Assembly (NCBI GenBank): GCA_019634625.1
Contig: JAHCBA010000051.1
Span: 1-41,977, forward strand
Direction of reading: 5' to 3'
DNA length: 41,977 nucleotides
Source: Verrucomicrobiia bacterium
Lineage (GTDB): Bacteria > Verrucomicrobiota > Verrucomicrobiia > Limisphaerales > CAIMTB01
Numbering within the stretch: position 1 is the first letter of the stretch; the number at the start of each line of letters is the position of its first letter. Both the position numbers and the translations under genes were made by a program. Shown here piece after piece: positions 1-10,258 of the stretch. The notes under the pieces are model-generated. The model was not told the DNA's origin and ran no database searches. It saw only the letters and a program-made list of their open reading frames with translations.

Positions 1-327
1 GCGACCGACGAGCTCAGTGAGGATGCGGTCGAGCTCCGCGATGCGCGTCCGGCAACCAGCCTGGACATCGCCATCGGCCGCGAAAACGTGGAGCCGGGCG
101 AGAGTATCGAGGCAGGCGCGGGCGTAGAGTGCATCCAGGACCTCGCCCGGCTGCCAGGGTGGAGGCGGGTCGCCGTCGAAAATCGCCCCGTCTCCGGCGA
201 CGGCGGCGCGCCTGAGCGCGATGACGAGACCCTCCGCCCCCTCCCCAGGCGGGATGGACAGCATCGACTCGTCGATCTCGATGGGTTCGGGCTTGCTGGG
301 CCCGCCCGCAGGCGGTAAGGCAGGCAT
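1..327 (-). CDS. Hypothetical protein, 3' end beyond the window
   Basis: An open frame of 109 codons starts at ATG (complement of 325-327) and runs without a stop to the window edge, so the C-terminus is missing. The protein begins MPALPPAGGPSKPEP and is followed by an acidic stretch and an Ala/Arg/Leu-rich predicted helical part near its visible end. I recognise no domain. It is the last visible member of a minus-strand run (integrase, HTH protein, hypothetical protein) and probably belongs to the same integrated element. Coding is supported by the uninterrupted frame, GC-rich third positions and matching orientation; function is unknown. Confidence 0.55.
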   Translation of the reverse strand, partial: MPALPPAGGPSKPEPIEIDESMLSIPPGEGAEGLVIALRRAAVAGDGAIFDGDPPPPWQPGEVLDALYARACLDTLARLHVFAADGDVQAGCRTRIAELDRILTELVGR

Positions 328-1009: not shown

Positions 1010-1252
1010 TCACAGTTTCCCGGTCGCGAACCTCGTCTGGAGTTTCTCCACGTCGCCGCGGTGCCAGAGATAGCTGGCGCCACCCACCCGGCTGCCGGTG
1101 GGGCGCACGCTGCGCACCCTATGGCGCCTGAGCCACAGCATGACGGTGCGCCGGGAGGGCGGGGGCTGGACCAGGCCCTTGAAGAGCCGGAGGGCCTCGG
1201 CGGTGGTGAGATACACGGCTCTTGCGGCCGGGGGAGAGTCAGTAGTCTGCAT
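1010..1252 (-). CDS. Small helix-turn-helix DNA-binding protein (excisionase/AlpA-like)
   Basis: An 80-residue protein. After a short polar N-terminus comes YLTTAEALRLF, then a recognition-helix-like segment SRRTVMLWLRRHRVRSV, then a wing-like GASYLWHRGDVEKL. This is the layout of the HTH_17/MerR-like excisionase and AlpA families, which bind DNA to control excision or early element genes. The second position of the HTH (residues about 35-52) is strongly basic. The position between an integrase gene and a hypothetical gene, all on one strand, supports a recombination directionality or regulatory role; that role is inferred. A possible promoter lies just upstream. Confidence 0.65.
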   Translation of the reverse strand: MQTTDSPPAARAVYLTTAEALRLFKGLVQPPPSRRTVMLWLRRHRVRSVRPTGSRVGGASYLWHRGDVEKLQTRFATGKL

Positions 1253-1378: not shown

Positions 1379-2557
1379 TCATGGCAGCAGGCCGAAAAAT
1401 TTCTCGGTGTCCGCCGCCGAAACCCGCCCCACGTAGTGCTCCCGCAGCATCTTCTCGGAGTTCCCGCCTGCCATGGCCGTGTCGGCGAAGCTGCCCAGCC
1501 GCTTGAGCAGGAAGCTGAGCCCCGTGTGCCGGATGGCGTTGACGGGCCAGTCTATGAACCCAGCCGCCTCCCGCACCCGAACGAACGAGCGCTGGTCGTA
1601 GGCCAGATCGCGCTGGCCATGAGCGTCAGCCCACTTCAGCCAGGCGATCAGGTTCGGCTGAAGGTCCACGACGCGGGCCTTGCCCGGCTTGGTTTGCCTG
1701 CCCTCCAGGCGCACGGTTCCATCGGCGAGGTTGAACTGCCCCCACGTCAACCGCCCCAGCTCCGCGTTGCGGATGCCGGCGAACAAGCCGACGGCGAGAT
1801 AAGGCACCATCCGGCCACCGTCAGTCTCCTGGGCGGCGCGCAGCAGGGCCTCGGCCTGGGCCACGGTCAGGAGGGTGGGCTCTTCGAGTTCGCCAACCTC
1901 GACCTTCACCACGCTCACCGGGTTGGACTTGATCCAGCAGCGGGGACGCTCCATGCACCAGCTCATGAGCCGGGAGAGGACGAGACGGTCGTTGGCCCTG
2001 GAGCGGGCGGAGACCTGACGGCTGTTCAGGAGCCGGTCCACGTCGTCCGGCGTGATCTCGTGGATCGCACGGTGCCCGACCCGGACCCGGAACTTCTCCA
2101 GGCGCGTTCGGAGGTTCTTCCTGGTCCTGTCGCGCAGCGTGGGCGTCTGGTTCACCCAGGTCTGGAACTGGTCCATGGCGTCGCCGAAGTATACAACGAC
2201 CGGAACGAGCTGGCCCTCGGCGCGCATCCGAAGCCAAACGTCTACGGCACCGAGGAGGCTGCCCGGTCCAGCCTCCGCCTGGGCGAGCTTGACCCAGGCG
2301 GCTTCCGCCTCCGAAAGCTGTTCCCGCGTCAGCGAGGTGGCCCGCAAGGATTCCGGCTCCGGTTCCGCTTGAAGATGTTCGCGCTCCAGTTCGCGGCGAC
2401 GCTCCAAAGCCCGGGCTTCGCTGGGGTAGTTCTCCCGCACCCGCCGGCCGTCGGCGCTACCCTGCACCCTCCAGACGAGGTCACCGCTGGGGTTCCGAAA
2501 CCGAACGACGCTGAAGCCGCTCTTGCGGGGCCGGCCTCTGCCAGGGGTCGCTGTCAT
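1379..2557 (-). CDS. Tyrosine recombinase / phage-type integrase
   Basis: A 392-residue site-specific recombinase. The N-terminal ~90 residues are basic and arm-binding-like, a SAM-like core-binding domain occupies about 100-215, and the catalytic domain about 228-390. Catalytic residues seen are R263 (GIRNAELGRL), a likely lysine at 290/293 (QTKPGKARVV), R343 in NAIRHTGLSFL and the nucleophile Y375 (LREHYVG). Two positions that are usually His are changed: Asn340 in the HxxR box and Gly/Asn in place of the GH pair (AGGNSEKM, 364-370). The frame extends to a TTG at 2575, but ATG 2557 is preferred. Its 5' end points at the half tRNA-Ser gene, so it most likely integrated this element there. 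Confidence 0.88.
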   Translation of the reverse strand: MTATPGRGRPRKSGFSVVRFRNPSGDLVWRVQGSADGRRVRENYPSEARALERRRELEREHLQAEPEPESLRATSLTREQLSEAEAAWVKLAQAEAGPGSLLGAVDVWLRMRAEGQLVPVVVYFGDAMDQFQTWVNQTPTLRDRTRKNLRTRLEKFRVRVGHRAIHEITPDDVDRLLNSRQVSARSRANDRLVLSRLMSWCMERPRCWIKSNPVSVVKVEVGELEEPTLLTVAQAEALLRAAQETDGGRMVPYLAVGLFAGIRNAELGRLTWGQFNLADGTVRLEGRQTKPGKARVVDLQPNLIAWLKWADAHGQRDLAYDQRSFVRVREAAGFIDWPVNAIRHTGLSFLLKRLGSFADTAMAGGNSEKMLREHYVGRVSAADTEKFFGLLP

Positions 2558-2587: not shown

Positions 2588-2619
2588 GGCAAATCAAATG
2601 GCAAATCCCAAAGGCAAAT
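2588..2619. repeat. Three direct GGCAAAT repeats upstream of integrase
   Basis: GGCAAAT occurs at 2588-2594, 2600-2606 and 2613-2619, a spacing of 12-13 bp. The repeats lie between the integrase start and the half tRNA gene. Short direct repeats in this position are typical arm-type integrase or excisionase binding sites; that role is inferred. Confidence 0.5.
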
Positions 2620-2638
2620 GCGGCTTTTGCTGGGATTT
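2603..2638. promoter_or_regulatory. AAATCCCA / TGGGATTT inverted repeat by the attachment junction
   Basis: AAATCCCA at 2603-2610 is mirrored by TGGGATTT at 2631-2638, giving 8-bp arms with a 20-bp spacer. A related GGGGATTT lies at 2641-2648. The pair sits between the integrase gene and the tRNA half and may be part of the recombinase recognition region. Confidence 0.4.
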
Positions 2639-2656
2639 CAGGGGATTTTCACCGAC

Positions 2657-2695
2657 TTAGCAAACCGCCGCCTTCAGCCACTCGGCCACCTCTCC
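2657..2695 (-). tRNA. 5' half of tRNA-Ser(GCU), truncated at the anticodon loop (attachment-site remnant)
   Basis: On the minus strand from 2695 the sequence reads as a canonical tRNA-Ser 5' half: acceptor strand GGAGAGG, TG, D-stem GCC, loop GAGTGGCTGAA, GGC, G, anticodon-stem strand GCGGT and loop TTGCTAA with anticodon GCT. After the loop the expected ACCGC stem strand, long variable arm, TTCGAAT T-loop and CCTCTCC acceptor strand are absent, and integrase-proximal DNA begins. The gene is therefore split at the anticodon loop next to a tyrosine integrase, the classic picture of an attachment site. The partner half should lie at the other end of the element, left of this window. Confidence 0.8.
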
Positions 2696-3006
2696 GTCGC
2701 CTTCGGAACTGTGCTTCGCAGGACCGCTGTCCTCCTGACCGTCAACCGGTTCCGCACAAGGGAGGGCACTTTATCAGGTCGCCGGACGATGTCGAGCCCC
2801 AGCCTGTTCCACACGGCCAGCCGTTCAGCCGTTCGATGCGTTATTGCCAGGGCATGCCTGAACTTCGCACCGTGGCTTCTTGCGCGGCGACTCGAAGGCC
2901 GTCGCCCGGGTCGATGGCTCAGACCATGGACAACCCGGCAGAGGTCGCGCCCGAATCGCCCGCGAAGCCACCCCGGGCTCCCCCCATCCCGGAACGCCCA
3001 ATCCCT
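2696..3006. other. Intergenic stretch without a convincing gene
   Basis: This lies between the tRNA half and the hydrolase gene. Open frames here have poor composition and resemble no family. On the minus strand a TTGACG (near 2740) could belong to the tRNA promoter, but I see no good -10. No other structure is evident. Confidence 0.4.
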
Positions 3007-4110
3007 TCAACGAAGGTAGGCCCTCAACCATGCCTCCATCCGCTCCACAGCCACCGGTGGCACCGAGTGGCCCTGTCGATGATTGAACAAACCCAGGCGT
3101 GCCATCGGTCCGTAAAGGCGGTAGATCCGCAGGGCCGCGTCCATAAAGGGCCAACTGGCGTCCCCGTCCGCCGATTCTCCGCCAATCAGCAGGAAGGCCC
3201 GCGGCGCCACCAGGGCCAGCAGTTCGTGATGCTCCCGTTCGAAGCCCGCCTCCCGGATTCCCGGCCCCAGGTACCAATCGTCGTGCCAGTTCGAAAACCG
3301 CGTTCCAATGCCGCCCTCGCTGCTGACCGTCGCCCGGATCCGCTCATCAAAGGCCGCCAGGTACAGCGCCTCCTTGCCGCCCAACGAGTGCCCCACGCAC
3401 CCCAACCGTGCCGAATCCACTTCTGGCAGCGACGCCAGCACATCCACCGCCACGAGACCGTCCAGCAGCATCCGGTCCATCCCTCTCGCCCCAGGGTGAC
3501 GCTCAAGAAATCGTCGCGCCTGACCCGCCGCGTCCATGCTTCGATTCGCGGTCCACAGGAAGTTGCGCGGCGAGAGCGTGACGTACCCCTGCTGCGCCAG
3601 GCGCAGTCCAAACGCCTTCTCCGGCTCCCCCTCGATCCCTGCCGGCTGCAGGATCGACTGCCGAACCGTCGAGTGGAACACCACCACGCCCGGACGCGGC
3701 GAATGCCCGTCGCCCGGAAACATCAGATACGCCTCCACCTCCTGATCCGACTCCACCGCATACCGAATCAGCAGTCGGCGCACCCCGTTGGGACGATCCT
3801 CCTCCAGCACGCTCCACCGAGGGGCTTCACGCGCCGGCCCCCCCGCCAAATGCCGGCGCGAAAGGGGCCCCAGGAACGTCAGCCAGCGGGATCGCAGCCC
3901 CTGCCGTCGCGCTTCCCAGTCCAGCCGCATGTCCTCCAACGTCCCTGCCTCCTCCCGCAGCAGTGGCGTCAGAACGTGCCCGTGTTCCGCCACGAAAGCG
4001 GGTGGACGTTGCACCGTGTCCAACCAGGCCACTTCGTGATCCGCCGCAGCCGCCAGCCAGGTGGCCAGCCCAATTCCCAGTCCGAGAGATCCTCGCATGC
4101 GCATCGCCAT
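3007..4110 (-). CDS. Secreted alpha/beta hydrolase (dienelactone hydrolase / acetyl-esterase-like)
   Basis: A 367-residue protein. Starting at ATG 4110 gives a signal peptide (MAMRMRGSLGLGIGLATWLAAAA), so export is expected; the open frame extends to 4245 but without signal-like sequence. The fold is indicated by VEAYLMFPGD, a GVVVFHSTV strand, a nucleophile elbow CVGHSLGGKEALYL with Ser242, an acidic segment GGESADGDASWPF and a terminal His348 in NHRQGHSVPP. This layout is typical of large secreted hydrolases related to acetyl xylan esterase and dienelactone hydrolase; the substrate cannot be told. The gene diverges from the VCBS-repeat gene with about 100 bp between starts, so the two may share a control region. 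Confidence 0.8.
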   Translation of the reverse strand: MAMRMRGSLGLGIGLATWLAAAADHEVAWLDTVQRPPAFVAEHGHVLTPLLREEAGTLEDMRLDWEARRQGLRSRWLTFLGPLSRRHLAGGPAREAPRWSVLEEDRPNGVRRLLIRYAVESDQEVEAYLMFPGDGHSPRPGVVVFHSTVRQSILQPAGIEGEPEKAFGLRLAQQGYVTLSPRNFLWTANRSMDAAGQARRFLERHPGARGMDRMLLDGLVAVDVLASLPEVDSARLGCVGHSLGGKEALYLAAFDERIRATVSSEGGIGTRFSNWHDDWYLGPGIREAGFEREHHELLALVAPRAFLLIGGESADGDASWPFMDAALRIYRLYGPMARLGLFNHRQGHSVPPVAVERMEAWLRAYLR

Positions 4111-4210
4111 CGATACCCGCTTTGGGGTCCCGGAACCAAGACCTCCCCTCCGGGGATTGAGAGCCGTTCCACGGTTGGTCCCCCCGCTGGTTCTCTGGTA
4201 GCAACGTCCC

Positions 4211-7200
4211 ATGCCGCCGTTCGTCCGCCCCTGCTTCCTGGCCATGGGCCTGTATGCCCTGATCGCCCAGGGAGGTGAAGCGCCCCAACTGGACTGGATC
4301 GAGGGCGACGGCTACCGGCGCCTTCCTCTGAAACCTTCGACCCAGGGAACGGGCTTCACCCGCCTTGCCCCTGCGGATCTGGGCATCACCTGGACCAACT
4401 ACTGTTCACCCGCCCGATACTCGCGTCGCCAGAACCTCATGAACGGTTCGGGTGTGGCTCTCGGCGATTTCGACGGCGACGGCTGGTGCGACATCTACTT
4501 CTGCAACCTCGAAGGCCCGAATGCCCTCTACCGGAATCTGGGCGGCTGGCGGTTCACCAACGTGACCGAACAGGCCGGCGTCGCGGCACGCCACCTCCTC
4601 TCAACCGGCGCCCTGTTCGCGGACTTCAACGGCAACGGGCTTCTCGATCTGCACGTGACCTCCTTCCTGGGGCCGGACGCCCTCTTCCTGAATCAAGGTG
4701 ACGGCACCTTCACCAACGTGATCGACCAGGCCGGGATCTCCATCCCGGGTGCCGCAACCTCCTCGGCCGCCGCGGACCTGAATGGCGACGGCTGGCTCGA
4801 CCTGTATGTGGCCCGCTTCGCGGTGGAGGCGTTCCTTCGTGACGGTGCGGCCATCGCCACCCGCATGGTCGGTGGCCAGCCCGTGGTCACCGGCCGGCCC
4901 GGCCGCCGCCTCCAGATCCTGAACAACAAGCTCTACGAAAGCGGCGAACCTGACCTCATCTTCCTCAACCAGGGAGGCGCCCGCTTCGTCCCGATCTCCT
5001 GGCCCGACCATTTCACTGATGAACAGGGGAAACCGTTCCCCGCCGCGCCCCCGGACCTCGGCTTCACCGTCCAGTTGCGGGACATCAACGGCGACGGATT
5101 CCCAGACATTTTTGTCTGCAACGACTTTCAAACGCCCGACCGCATCTGGATCAATGATGGCAAGGGCCGGTTCCGCGAGGCCCCTTCCCTGGCCATCCGC
5201 AATATGAGCTACGCCTCCATGGGCGTGGACGTCGCCGATATCGACCGGGATGGATTCCTCGATTTCTACACGGTCGAAATGCTCCCCGTGGACCACTTCC
5301 GCCACATGACCCACGTGGTTCGCGGCGCCGATCCCGACTGGCGTCGTCCCAGGGATCCATTCTACCGGGACGAATTCTCGCGCAGCATCATGGCTTTGAA
5401 TCGCGGGGACGGCACCTACGCCGAGATCGGCTGGTACTCCGCCACAGCAACCAGCGACTGGTCCTGGACGCCGATCTTTCTGGATGTGGATCTCGATGGA
5501 TACGAGGACCTGATCATCTCCAGCGGGTATCCCCACGACGTCAACGATCTCGACGTCGCCGGCGGTGCCGGGCGCGGCGAGGGCCGGCGCTTCAATGACT
5601 CGTTCGTGGACCAACTCCTGCGCTATCCGCCCCTCGACTCACCGCACCTTGCCTGGAGGAACCGCGGCGATCGCACCTTCGAAGACGTCAGCCGCGAGTG
5701 GGGTTTCGATTTCAGAGTGGTCACCCACGGAATGGCGCTCGCCGACCTCGACAACGACGGCGACCTCGACGTCGTTGGCAATTCGTTCAATCACGCCCCC
5801 CTGATCTGTCGCAACGAAGCCACCGGTCCCCGCATTGCCGTGCGCCTGGTCGGACAGCCGCCCAATACCCATGGCACCGGGGCCCGAATCCGCGTCCTGG
5901 GCGGCCCTGTGCCCGTGCAGGAGCAGGAAATGCTGACCGGAGGGCGCTACCTCTCGAGTGACCAGCATCAACGCACGTTCGCCACGGGCACCAACACCTC
6001 CGGCCTCTCCATCGAAGTGCGCTGGCGGGACGGGACATTCTCCCGCGTTTCCCGAGCCCTCCCCGACAACCTCTACGAAATCCACCAGTCCGGAGCCCGG
6101 CCGGGTCCCTCACCTGCCACCCCATCCGAAACCCCTTCCCCGCACTTCGTCCCCGTCGCCGTCCCGCCTGAAATGCTCCACCACGACCCGGATTTCGACG
6201 AGTTCACCCGTCAGCCCCTGCTGCCCTGGCGCCAATCCTTCCAGGGACCCGGAGTCCTCTGGCTCGATGGCTCGCACCAGGATGATGACCGGGTCCTGAT
6301 TGGCAACGGACGCGGAGGCATTCCGCGAAGTGCCTTGGTGCGTCCCACTCCGACCGGCCCCGAAATGGGTCCGGACCCGATCGCCTGGGGCACCGAAAGC
6401 CCGGACGACACACTGGGCCTCCTCGCAGCGTCCTTCGTCGAAGGCACCACCACGGTCCTCCTCGCCACGGCCAACTACGAATCGGCTTCGCCCGGCCACC
6501 CCGCCGTCCTGCGGTTTGACCGGACTGCCTCCGGTTGGAGCCCCGGACCTGCTCTGCCGGGCGGGAGCAGCAGTCCCGGGCCGATGGCGGTCGGGGATAT
6601 CGATGGTGACGGGGACCTTGACTTGGTGGTGGCTGGACGGATGGTCGCGGGTCGCTACCCGGAGGCGGCGGATACCCGGGTGTTCCGCAACGAAGGCGGG
6701 CGCCTGGAGGAACTTGCGGAGGCCGGCCGGGCCCTCGCAGGCATCGGCCTGGTAACCGGCGCCCTCTTCGCCGACCTCACCGGAGACGGCACCCAGGAAC
6801 TCGTGCTCGCCTGCGAGTGGGGTCCCCTGCGCGTCTTTCGCTGGTCCGACGGACAACCGCGCGAAATCACTTCCAACCTCGGTCTCGATCGGGTGCGCGG
6901 CGTCTGGCAGGGGATCGCTGCGGCGGACTTCGACGGGGACGGACGCATCGATCTCGTTGCGGGCAATTGGGGACGTAACAGCTACCAGCAGCGGGCCCCC
7001 GGCGGTCCTTGGCAGCTGCACTTCGCCGATCTCGAAGGCGACGGCCGGGTGGCCATCGTCGAGAGTTACTGGCATCCCGGCGAACGGGATCAACTGCCCT
7101 TTCGCACCCGGGACACTCTCGCCACCCAGCTGCGCTGGCTGCCCGCCGCCTTCCCCCGGCATGCCGATTTCGCCCGGGCCAATGTGAGCCGTCTCCTCGG

Positions 7201-9244: not shown

Positions 9245-10258
9245 ATGGGAATGAAGAAAACACTGAAAAGGGTCGGTCCCAAAGGTTCCATCGACGCAGC
9301 AGCCCGTCGCACCCCTCGTGAGGCGCCCCGAACGTCGCCTCCGATCCACAAAGATCAGCCCCCCCAGGATCCATCGCTGTCCGCGCCCCTTCCGAAGACC
9401 AATCCCATCGAGTCCGTCCCCCGCGAATTGGGCGTCCGATCACCCCTCGAACAGTACCTCCGCGAAGTGTGCGAAGTGCCCCTCCTGACGCCCGATCAGG
9501 AGGTGGAATTGGCCCAGCGCATTCAGAAAGGCGACCAGCGCGCCAGGGAACACATGATCCGCGCCAACCTCCGGCTGTGCGTCAAGATCGCCCGCGACTA
9601 CGAACACCATGGAGTGCCCCTTCTGGACCTCGTCAACGAGGGCAACATCGGCCTGATGAAGGCGGTGGATTACTTCGATCCCACCAAGGGAGCCAAGTTC
9701 TCCACCTACAGCTCCTGGTGGATCAAACAGGCCATCAAACGGGCGGTGGCCAACCAATCCCGCACCATCCGCATCCCCATCCACCTCCGAGACCGTATCG
9801 CCCACTTCTGGCGCGCCCATTCCCGCCTGCATGACGAATTGAAGCGGGAACCGACCGACGAGGAGATCGCCGACGAGTTGGGCCTGCCCATGAGCCGGAT
9901 CAGGAAGATGCGCCGGGCCATGCTCAGCACCATCTCCCTTGATGCCCAACTCGGAGATGACGACAGCAGCACGATCTCCGAGGTGATCGCCGATGAACGG
10001 TCGAGCACCGCTTATCAGGACCTCGAACAACGGACCAGGACGGACCTGGTTCGCGAACTCCTCGACCGCCTCAACGACCGGGAACTGACGATCCTCCGCC
10101 AGCGTTTCGCCCTAGAGGGAGGTTCGGAAAAAACCCTCGAAGAGGTCGGTGTCCTGTTCAACCTCACCCGAGAGCGCATCCGCCAGCTTCAGAACATCGC
10201 CCTCACCAAGCTGCGCAAGTGGATCGAACAGCGGGAGGCGCTCCCGGATGCGGCCTGA
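9245..10258 (+). CDS. RNA polymerase sigma-70 family factor, group 2 (RpoD/RpoS-like)
   Basis: A 337-residue sigma factor. A basic, Pro-rich N-terminus (~1-60) precedes region 1.2 (SPLEQYLREVCEVPLLTPDQE). Region 2 is well conserved (RAREHMIRANLRLCVKIARDYEHHG, DLVNEGNIGLMKAVDYFDP, KFSTYSSWWIKQAIKRAVAN). Region 3 (EPTDEEIADELGLPMSRIRKM) and region 4 follow, with the recognition helix LTRERIRQLQNIALTKLRKW. It lacks the long acidic region 1.1 of a primary sigma, so it is probably an alternative group 2 factor. AGAGGAT before the start could serve ATG 9245 or ATG 9251. Divergence from the CarH-like gene and the pigment operon downstream suggest light- or stress-linked control of the operon; this is inference. 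Confidence 0.9.
   Translation: MGMKKTLKRVGPKGSIDAAARRTPREAPRTSPPIHKDQPPQDPSLSAPLPKTNPIESVPRELGVRSPLEQYLREVCEVPLLTPDQEVELAQRIQKGDQRAREHMIRANLRLCVKIARDYEHHGVPLLDLVNEGNIGLMKAVDYFDPTKGAKFSTYSSWWIKQAIKRAVANQSRTIRIPIHLRDRIAHFWRAHSRLHDELKREPTDEEIADELGLPMSRIRKMRRAMLSTISLDAQLGDDDSSTISEVIADERSSTAYQDLEQRTRTDLVRELLDRLNDRELTILRQRFALEGGSEKTLEEVGVLFNLTRERIRQLQNIALTKLRKWIEQREALPDAA

Follow-up and report, generated by a model that had tools for sequence, protein, structure and literature searches.

Displaced 5′ tRNA fragments were recorded in 159 of the 3919 islands described with Islander, and anticodon-centred sites in 2083 (PMC4383910). The pTN3-type integrases of Thermococcales use the 5′ half of a tRNA gene as their attachment site, with expression of the rebuilt tRNA coming from element DNA (reviewed in PMC8371274). 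In the tRNA-dependent lysogeny of actinobacteriophages, the cores are short and the interrupted gene stays broken, its loss being made good by a separate phage tRNA (PMC10865867).

The window analyzed here (the whole stretch of 41,977 nt) is the entire contig C51 of a draft genome of 6.74 Mb in 88 contigs. We conclude that a tyrosine-integrase element (a temperate phage, satellite, or island) has very probably integrated into the host's only tRNA-Ser(GCU) gene and rebuilt it with a promoter, leader, and 5′ half of its own. The arrangement is a variant, already known but uncommon, of an insertion strategy that is itself common, and this locus would offer a clear example of an element that carries the 5′ half. 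Like the Islander 5′-fragment islands, it combines a displaced 5′ fragment, a whole tRNA apparently rebuilt elsewhere, a tyrosine integrase, and an anticodon-centred site. Nothing essential differs; here the ends lie on separate contigs, and the putative replacement promoter and leader bear a visible likeness to the native pair left stranded. The fragment is the 5′ end, as in that class, while its upstream position and same orientation hold only if the contigs join as proposed below. The pTN3-type integrases would match this locus in both respects named above, but they are archaeal and suicidal, being split by integration, whereas the integrase gene described here is whole, with the putative attP outside it.

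A stranded tRNA half beside a tyrosine integrase

The features of C51 that bear on the junction are as follows.

1..327, minus strand: ORF inside the proposed element, running off the contig end
385..987, minus strand: ORF inside the proposed element, no Pfam or PHROG family match
1010..1252, minus strand: 80-a.a. ORF whose sequence suggests a small helix-turn-helix (excisionase-like) product; unmatched in Pfam and PHROG
1379..2557, minus strand: tyrosine integrase, 392 a.a. (Pfam Phage_integrase; PHROG 1 integrase)
2588..2619, minus strand: three ATTTGCC repeats, putative arm-type sites, with more copies on contig C32 and similar repeats before related integrases
2657..2695, minus strand: stranded 5′ half, tRNA-Ser(GCU) positions 1–39, 100% identical to the intact gene at C32:70701-70609
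2696..2709, minus strand: 14-nt 5′ flank completing a 53-nt repeat in common with C32:70663-70715
2768..2795, minus strand: promoter-like TCGACA-16-TAAAGT (predicted), read as the stranded native tRNA promoter
3007..4245, minus strand: gene resembling glucuronyl esterases/dienelactone hydrolases, in the chromosomal flank on the upstream side of the stump

The original prediction, made from the sequence of this region, had read nt. 2695–2657 (minus strand) as a perfect 5′ half of tRNA-Ser(GCU) that ends in the anticodon loop beside an integrase, with no 3′ half restored at the junction, and each of these points was borne out. The match to the intact tRNA covers positions 1–39 at 100%, and its last base is also the last of the anticodon loop (positions 33–39). 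The sequence that follows is GTCGGTGAAAATCCCC, where the anticodon stem would read ACCGC, and is unrelated to tRNA; ARAGORN found no tRNA in the window, nor does any 3′ half lie within it. The stump is ~100 nt from the integrase and runs in the same direction (both on the minus strand). An intron-split tRNA was rejected, given that no 3′ half follows the stump and ARAGORN reports none in the window. The idea of a special fold in the stump transcript was likewise dropped (z 0.10).

The interval nt. 2588–2695 also contains the three ATTTGCC repeats, which the original prediction had not mentioned. They lie on the integrase side of the stump, with no copy within 300 nt on its outer side. Beyond the hydrolase gene in the outer flank is a gene for a MerR/B12-binding protein.

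The integrase residues R263, K290, R343, and Y375 are invariant among 20 homologues. Among the sampled genomes of the order, no homologue exceeds 42% identity to the integrase of the window, and a scan of genome contigs with the integrase found no relative. Classical tyrosine recombinases carry H-x-x-R and GHS motifs; integrases of the window's group read D/N-x-x-RHT and GNS in the alignment columns around residues 340–366.

The intact gene on a second contig

A genome search with 501 nt around the junction gave one match besides itself, a 53-nt block at 100% identity on the minus strand of contig C32 (C32:70663-70715), with an E-value of 2.3e-20 against the whole 6.7-Mb genome, which is far beyond chance. 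The block comprises 14 nt of 5′ flank plus tRNA positions 1–39, as far as the 3′ loop edge, and leads into an intact gene:

C32:70701-70609, minus strand: intact tRNA-Ser(GCU), the sole GCU serine tRNA in the genome
C32:70800-70773: TCGACA-16-TACGAT, the aligned counterpart (predicted) of the promoter-like site on C51
C32:70828-70844: two ATTTGCC repeats on the 5′ side of the intact gene (p = 0.0006 by shuffling)

A count of tRNA-Ser(GCU) genes, as proposed in the original prediction, thus returned this one intact copy; the remaining serine tRNAs have the anticodons UGA, CGA, and GGA. A matching 3′ half, which was to be sought to the left of position 1, does exist, only at C32:70609-70701, the window starting at the first base of its contig. 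Two outcomes had been offered for the host: that the tRNA was disrupted, or that a new 5′ half and promoter come from the far end of the element. The second is supported by the intact gene, the 53-nt block, the arm-type repeats, and the promoter-like upstream region. The loss of tRNA-Ser(GCU) was rejected, the single genomic copy being whole on C32.

C32 terminates 398 nt upstream of the intact gene, and this end has a G+C content of 59%, compared to 67% in the adjoining 10.6 kb. On the 3′ side of the gene lie a tRNA-Thr and then cellular genes, and the outer flank of C32 includes genes for a GFO/IDH/MocA oxidoreductase and a SIS-domain protein, both cellular. Given the repeats inward of the stump, the low G+C content of the C32 end, and the cellular outer flanks, the best reading is that C51:1-2656 and the last ~380 nt of C32 are the integrase end and the far end of one element, respectively. 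Candidate arm-type repeats would then lie on both sides of the core (ATTTGCC three times and twice). We infer that the element connects C51 with C32; joining their outer flanks in silico yields a complete tRNA-Ser(GCU). No contig bridged the two ends in a contig-overlap search for the element interior, and a search of the genome for the terminase large subunit ATPase (TerL_ATPase) gave no match. An ORF start (MQRIDMPHHRHHPRKQGRTVVLRRGTHSTASLARRLG...) at C32:70989-71099 (plus strand) points away from the intact tRNA, is cut off by the contig end, and is possibly an element gene at the far end.

The regions upstream of the two tRNA copies are also alike. Both promoter-like sites lie ~72–100 nt before the tRNA, both leaders contain GTGCGGAACC, and the 92 nt upstream of each copy, outside the 14-nt repeat, align with a score of −1 against a shuffle mean of −20.6 (s.d. 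4.7; 0 of 3000 shuffles as high). The element therefore seems, judging from these alignments, to carry a diverged copy of a promoter and leader of tRNA-Ser type, for which a related host may have been the source. The C32 leader has a strong predicted hairpin (−34 kcal/mol).

The single intact copy would also suit tRNA-dependent lysogeny of the kind described in actinobacteriophages (PMC10865867), with the host tRNA broken and not rebuilt, and the C32 gene being a complete, element-borne tRNA-Ser(GCU) that rescues the cell. The two are alike in that the crossover would fall inside a single-copy host tRNA gene, leaving the host dependent on element DNA for that tRNA. However, the known cores of such systems are 8–10 bp and do not rebuild the gene, whereas the long core proposed here (the 53-nt repeat, which includes the whole 5′ half) would do so; moreover, the 3′ side of the C32 gene consists of a tRNA-Thr and cellular genes, and the arm-type repeats occur only on its 5′ side. 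We therefore regard this explanation as very unlikely.

Related integrases at split tRNA genes

We examined 30 loci with a homologous integrase, calling tRNA portions by BLAST. A 3′ tRNA portion lies antisense just upstream of the integrase in nine of them (Lys, Thr, Met, Arg, and Ser), mostly reaching the anticodon loop, and a 5′ half in the sense direction in two (the window and L131). A few of the 30 have intact tRNAs, and further fragments are visible by eye. The expectation in the original prediction that tRNA-targeting elements mostly rebuild the gene at the integrase end fails as a general rule for this clade: within the order, a stump, usually the 3′ half, is commoner there. In the wider phylum sample, other arrangements are seen, among them many cases of an intact tRNA that precedes the integrase in the sense direction.

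The carriers of 3′ halves (L109, L117, L123, L130, and the viral contigs L137 and L138) share with the window a homologous integrase (31–42% identity among the aligned genome loci), an anticodon-loop site, and a stump (in L137, a tRNA half) just upstream of the integrase. They differ in that the tRNA runs opposite to the integrase and in carrying the 3′ half, by which the host promoter is kept. In L137 and L138, ATTTGCC arms, as found in the window, flank a tRNA-Arg 3′ half on both sides in an attP-like layout. The viral contig L139 holds, in one piece, two ATTTGCC repeats, a TTGACA box, a tRNA-Thr 5′ half, two ATTTGCG repeats, and the integrase. A similar split was noted in the genome G024, where a tRNA-Thr 5′ half adjoins an integrase and an intact gene located on a separate contig gives a 45-nt match to it. 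The repeat found on both sides there is GTTGCTA instead of ATTTGCC. On its upstream side, the intact copy has a transposase and then cellular-looking genes, which are not clearly element genes.

These layouts bear on two further explanations. The stump and the intact gene sit in two places on different contigs, and the repeat alone is silent on which copy is native, so the C32 gene might be the untouched native one and the half in the window an element's attP copy carried into another site. An attP, however, would be expected to flank its half with arms on each side, as L137 and L139 do, whereas the window has them on the integrase side only, and C32 has arm repeats upstream of its intact gene; this explanation is accordingly also very unlikely. 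In a draft assembly of 88 contigs, the half might also be a duplication that arose by chance, a decayed tRNA pseudogene, or an assembly error, none of them connected with the integrase; but the break coincides precisely with the edge of the loop, only 100 nt away from the integrase, and related integrases repeatedly adjoin anticodon-split tRNAs; we give this possibility the least credence of all.

The 5′ halves stop at or just past the 3′ edge of the anticodon loop, while the best-matched 3′ halves (L137, L138, L142, and L143) begin at its 5′ edge. These edges point to the 7-bp anticodon loop as the probable overlap region. A single integrase clade would use this near-palindromic loop whichever half of the tRNA its elements carry.

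Other features were seen among the relatives. Four more distant integrase relatives (L140, nt. 3312–3343; L148, nt. 9757–9788; L183; and L187) have an antisense 5′ tRNA half (Phe or Ser) close to the integrase, with the tRNA whole beside it in L187; apparently this is a further route to 5′-half replacement, with rebuilding at the end that bears the integrase. In L110, L112, L115, L119, L121, and others, paired GTTGCC/ATTTGCC-like repeats, often at a spacing of ~12 bp, overlap with a TTGACA-like box that precedes the start of the integrase gene, an arrangement which suggests that integrase binding could affect its own promoter.

Proposed integration and its consequences for the host

Returning to the preferred reading of an element that rebuilds its target, the attP would consist of a tRNA-Ser promoter, a leader, and a 5′ half up to the anticodon loop, placed between two sets of ATTTGCC arms. 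Strand exchange across the 7-bp loop would join the 5′ half of the element to the chromosomal 3′ half at the far end (C32), where the whole gene would be rebuilt under the element's promoter, and would leave the original promoter and 5′ half stranded beside the integrase (nt. 2657–2795 in the window). We likewise infer the cut positions and which of the predicted promoters are active. This reading is supported by the 53-nt repeat, the single intact copy, the inward repeats, the similar upstream regions, the L139 and G024 layouts, the related integrases at loop splits, and the joined flanks. It is weakened by the lack of a bridging contig, an empty site, or a TerL ATPase, and by the G024 upstream genes that are not clearly those of an element.

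If correct, the host's sole gene for reading AGC and AGU codons would be expressed from element DNA, and imprecise loss of the element could therefore be lethal. The swap may also be regulatory, with the promoter and leader hairpin of the integrated element setting the level of the sole tRNA-Ser(GCU) and the stranded host promoter transcribing the integrase. No terminator-like site was found in nt. 2500–2900 of the window, which cover the stump and the integrase start, so the predicted stranded promoter could read into the integrase. We consider this regulatory extension unlikely; if true, growth-linked tRNA expression would feed the supply of integrase.

A search of 58 genomes, with comparison of same-genus loci, found no empty site, and DNA synteny was absent beyond the tRNA. 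Protein-level synteny matches in relatives were too sparse to decide, tblastx gave only noise, and the hydrolase, used as a synteny marker, had matches of at most 59% identity, none of them near a tRNA-Ser(GCU) match. The genome G001, from the same genus, has a distant integrase homologue (26% identity; L097, nt. 4917–6107) just downstream of its intact tRNA-Ser(GCU), and in view of this position, the tRNA-Ser(GCU) gene may be a repeated integration target.
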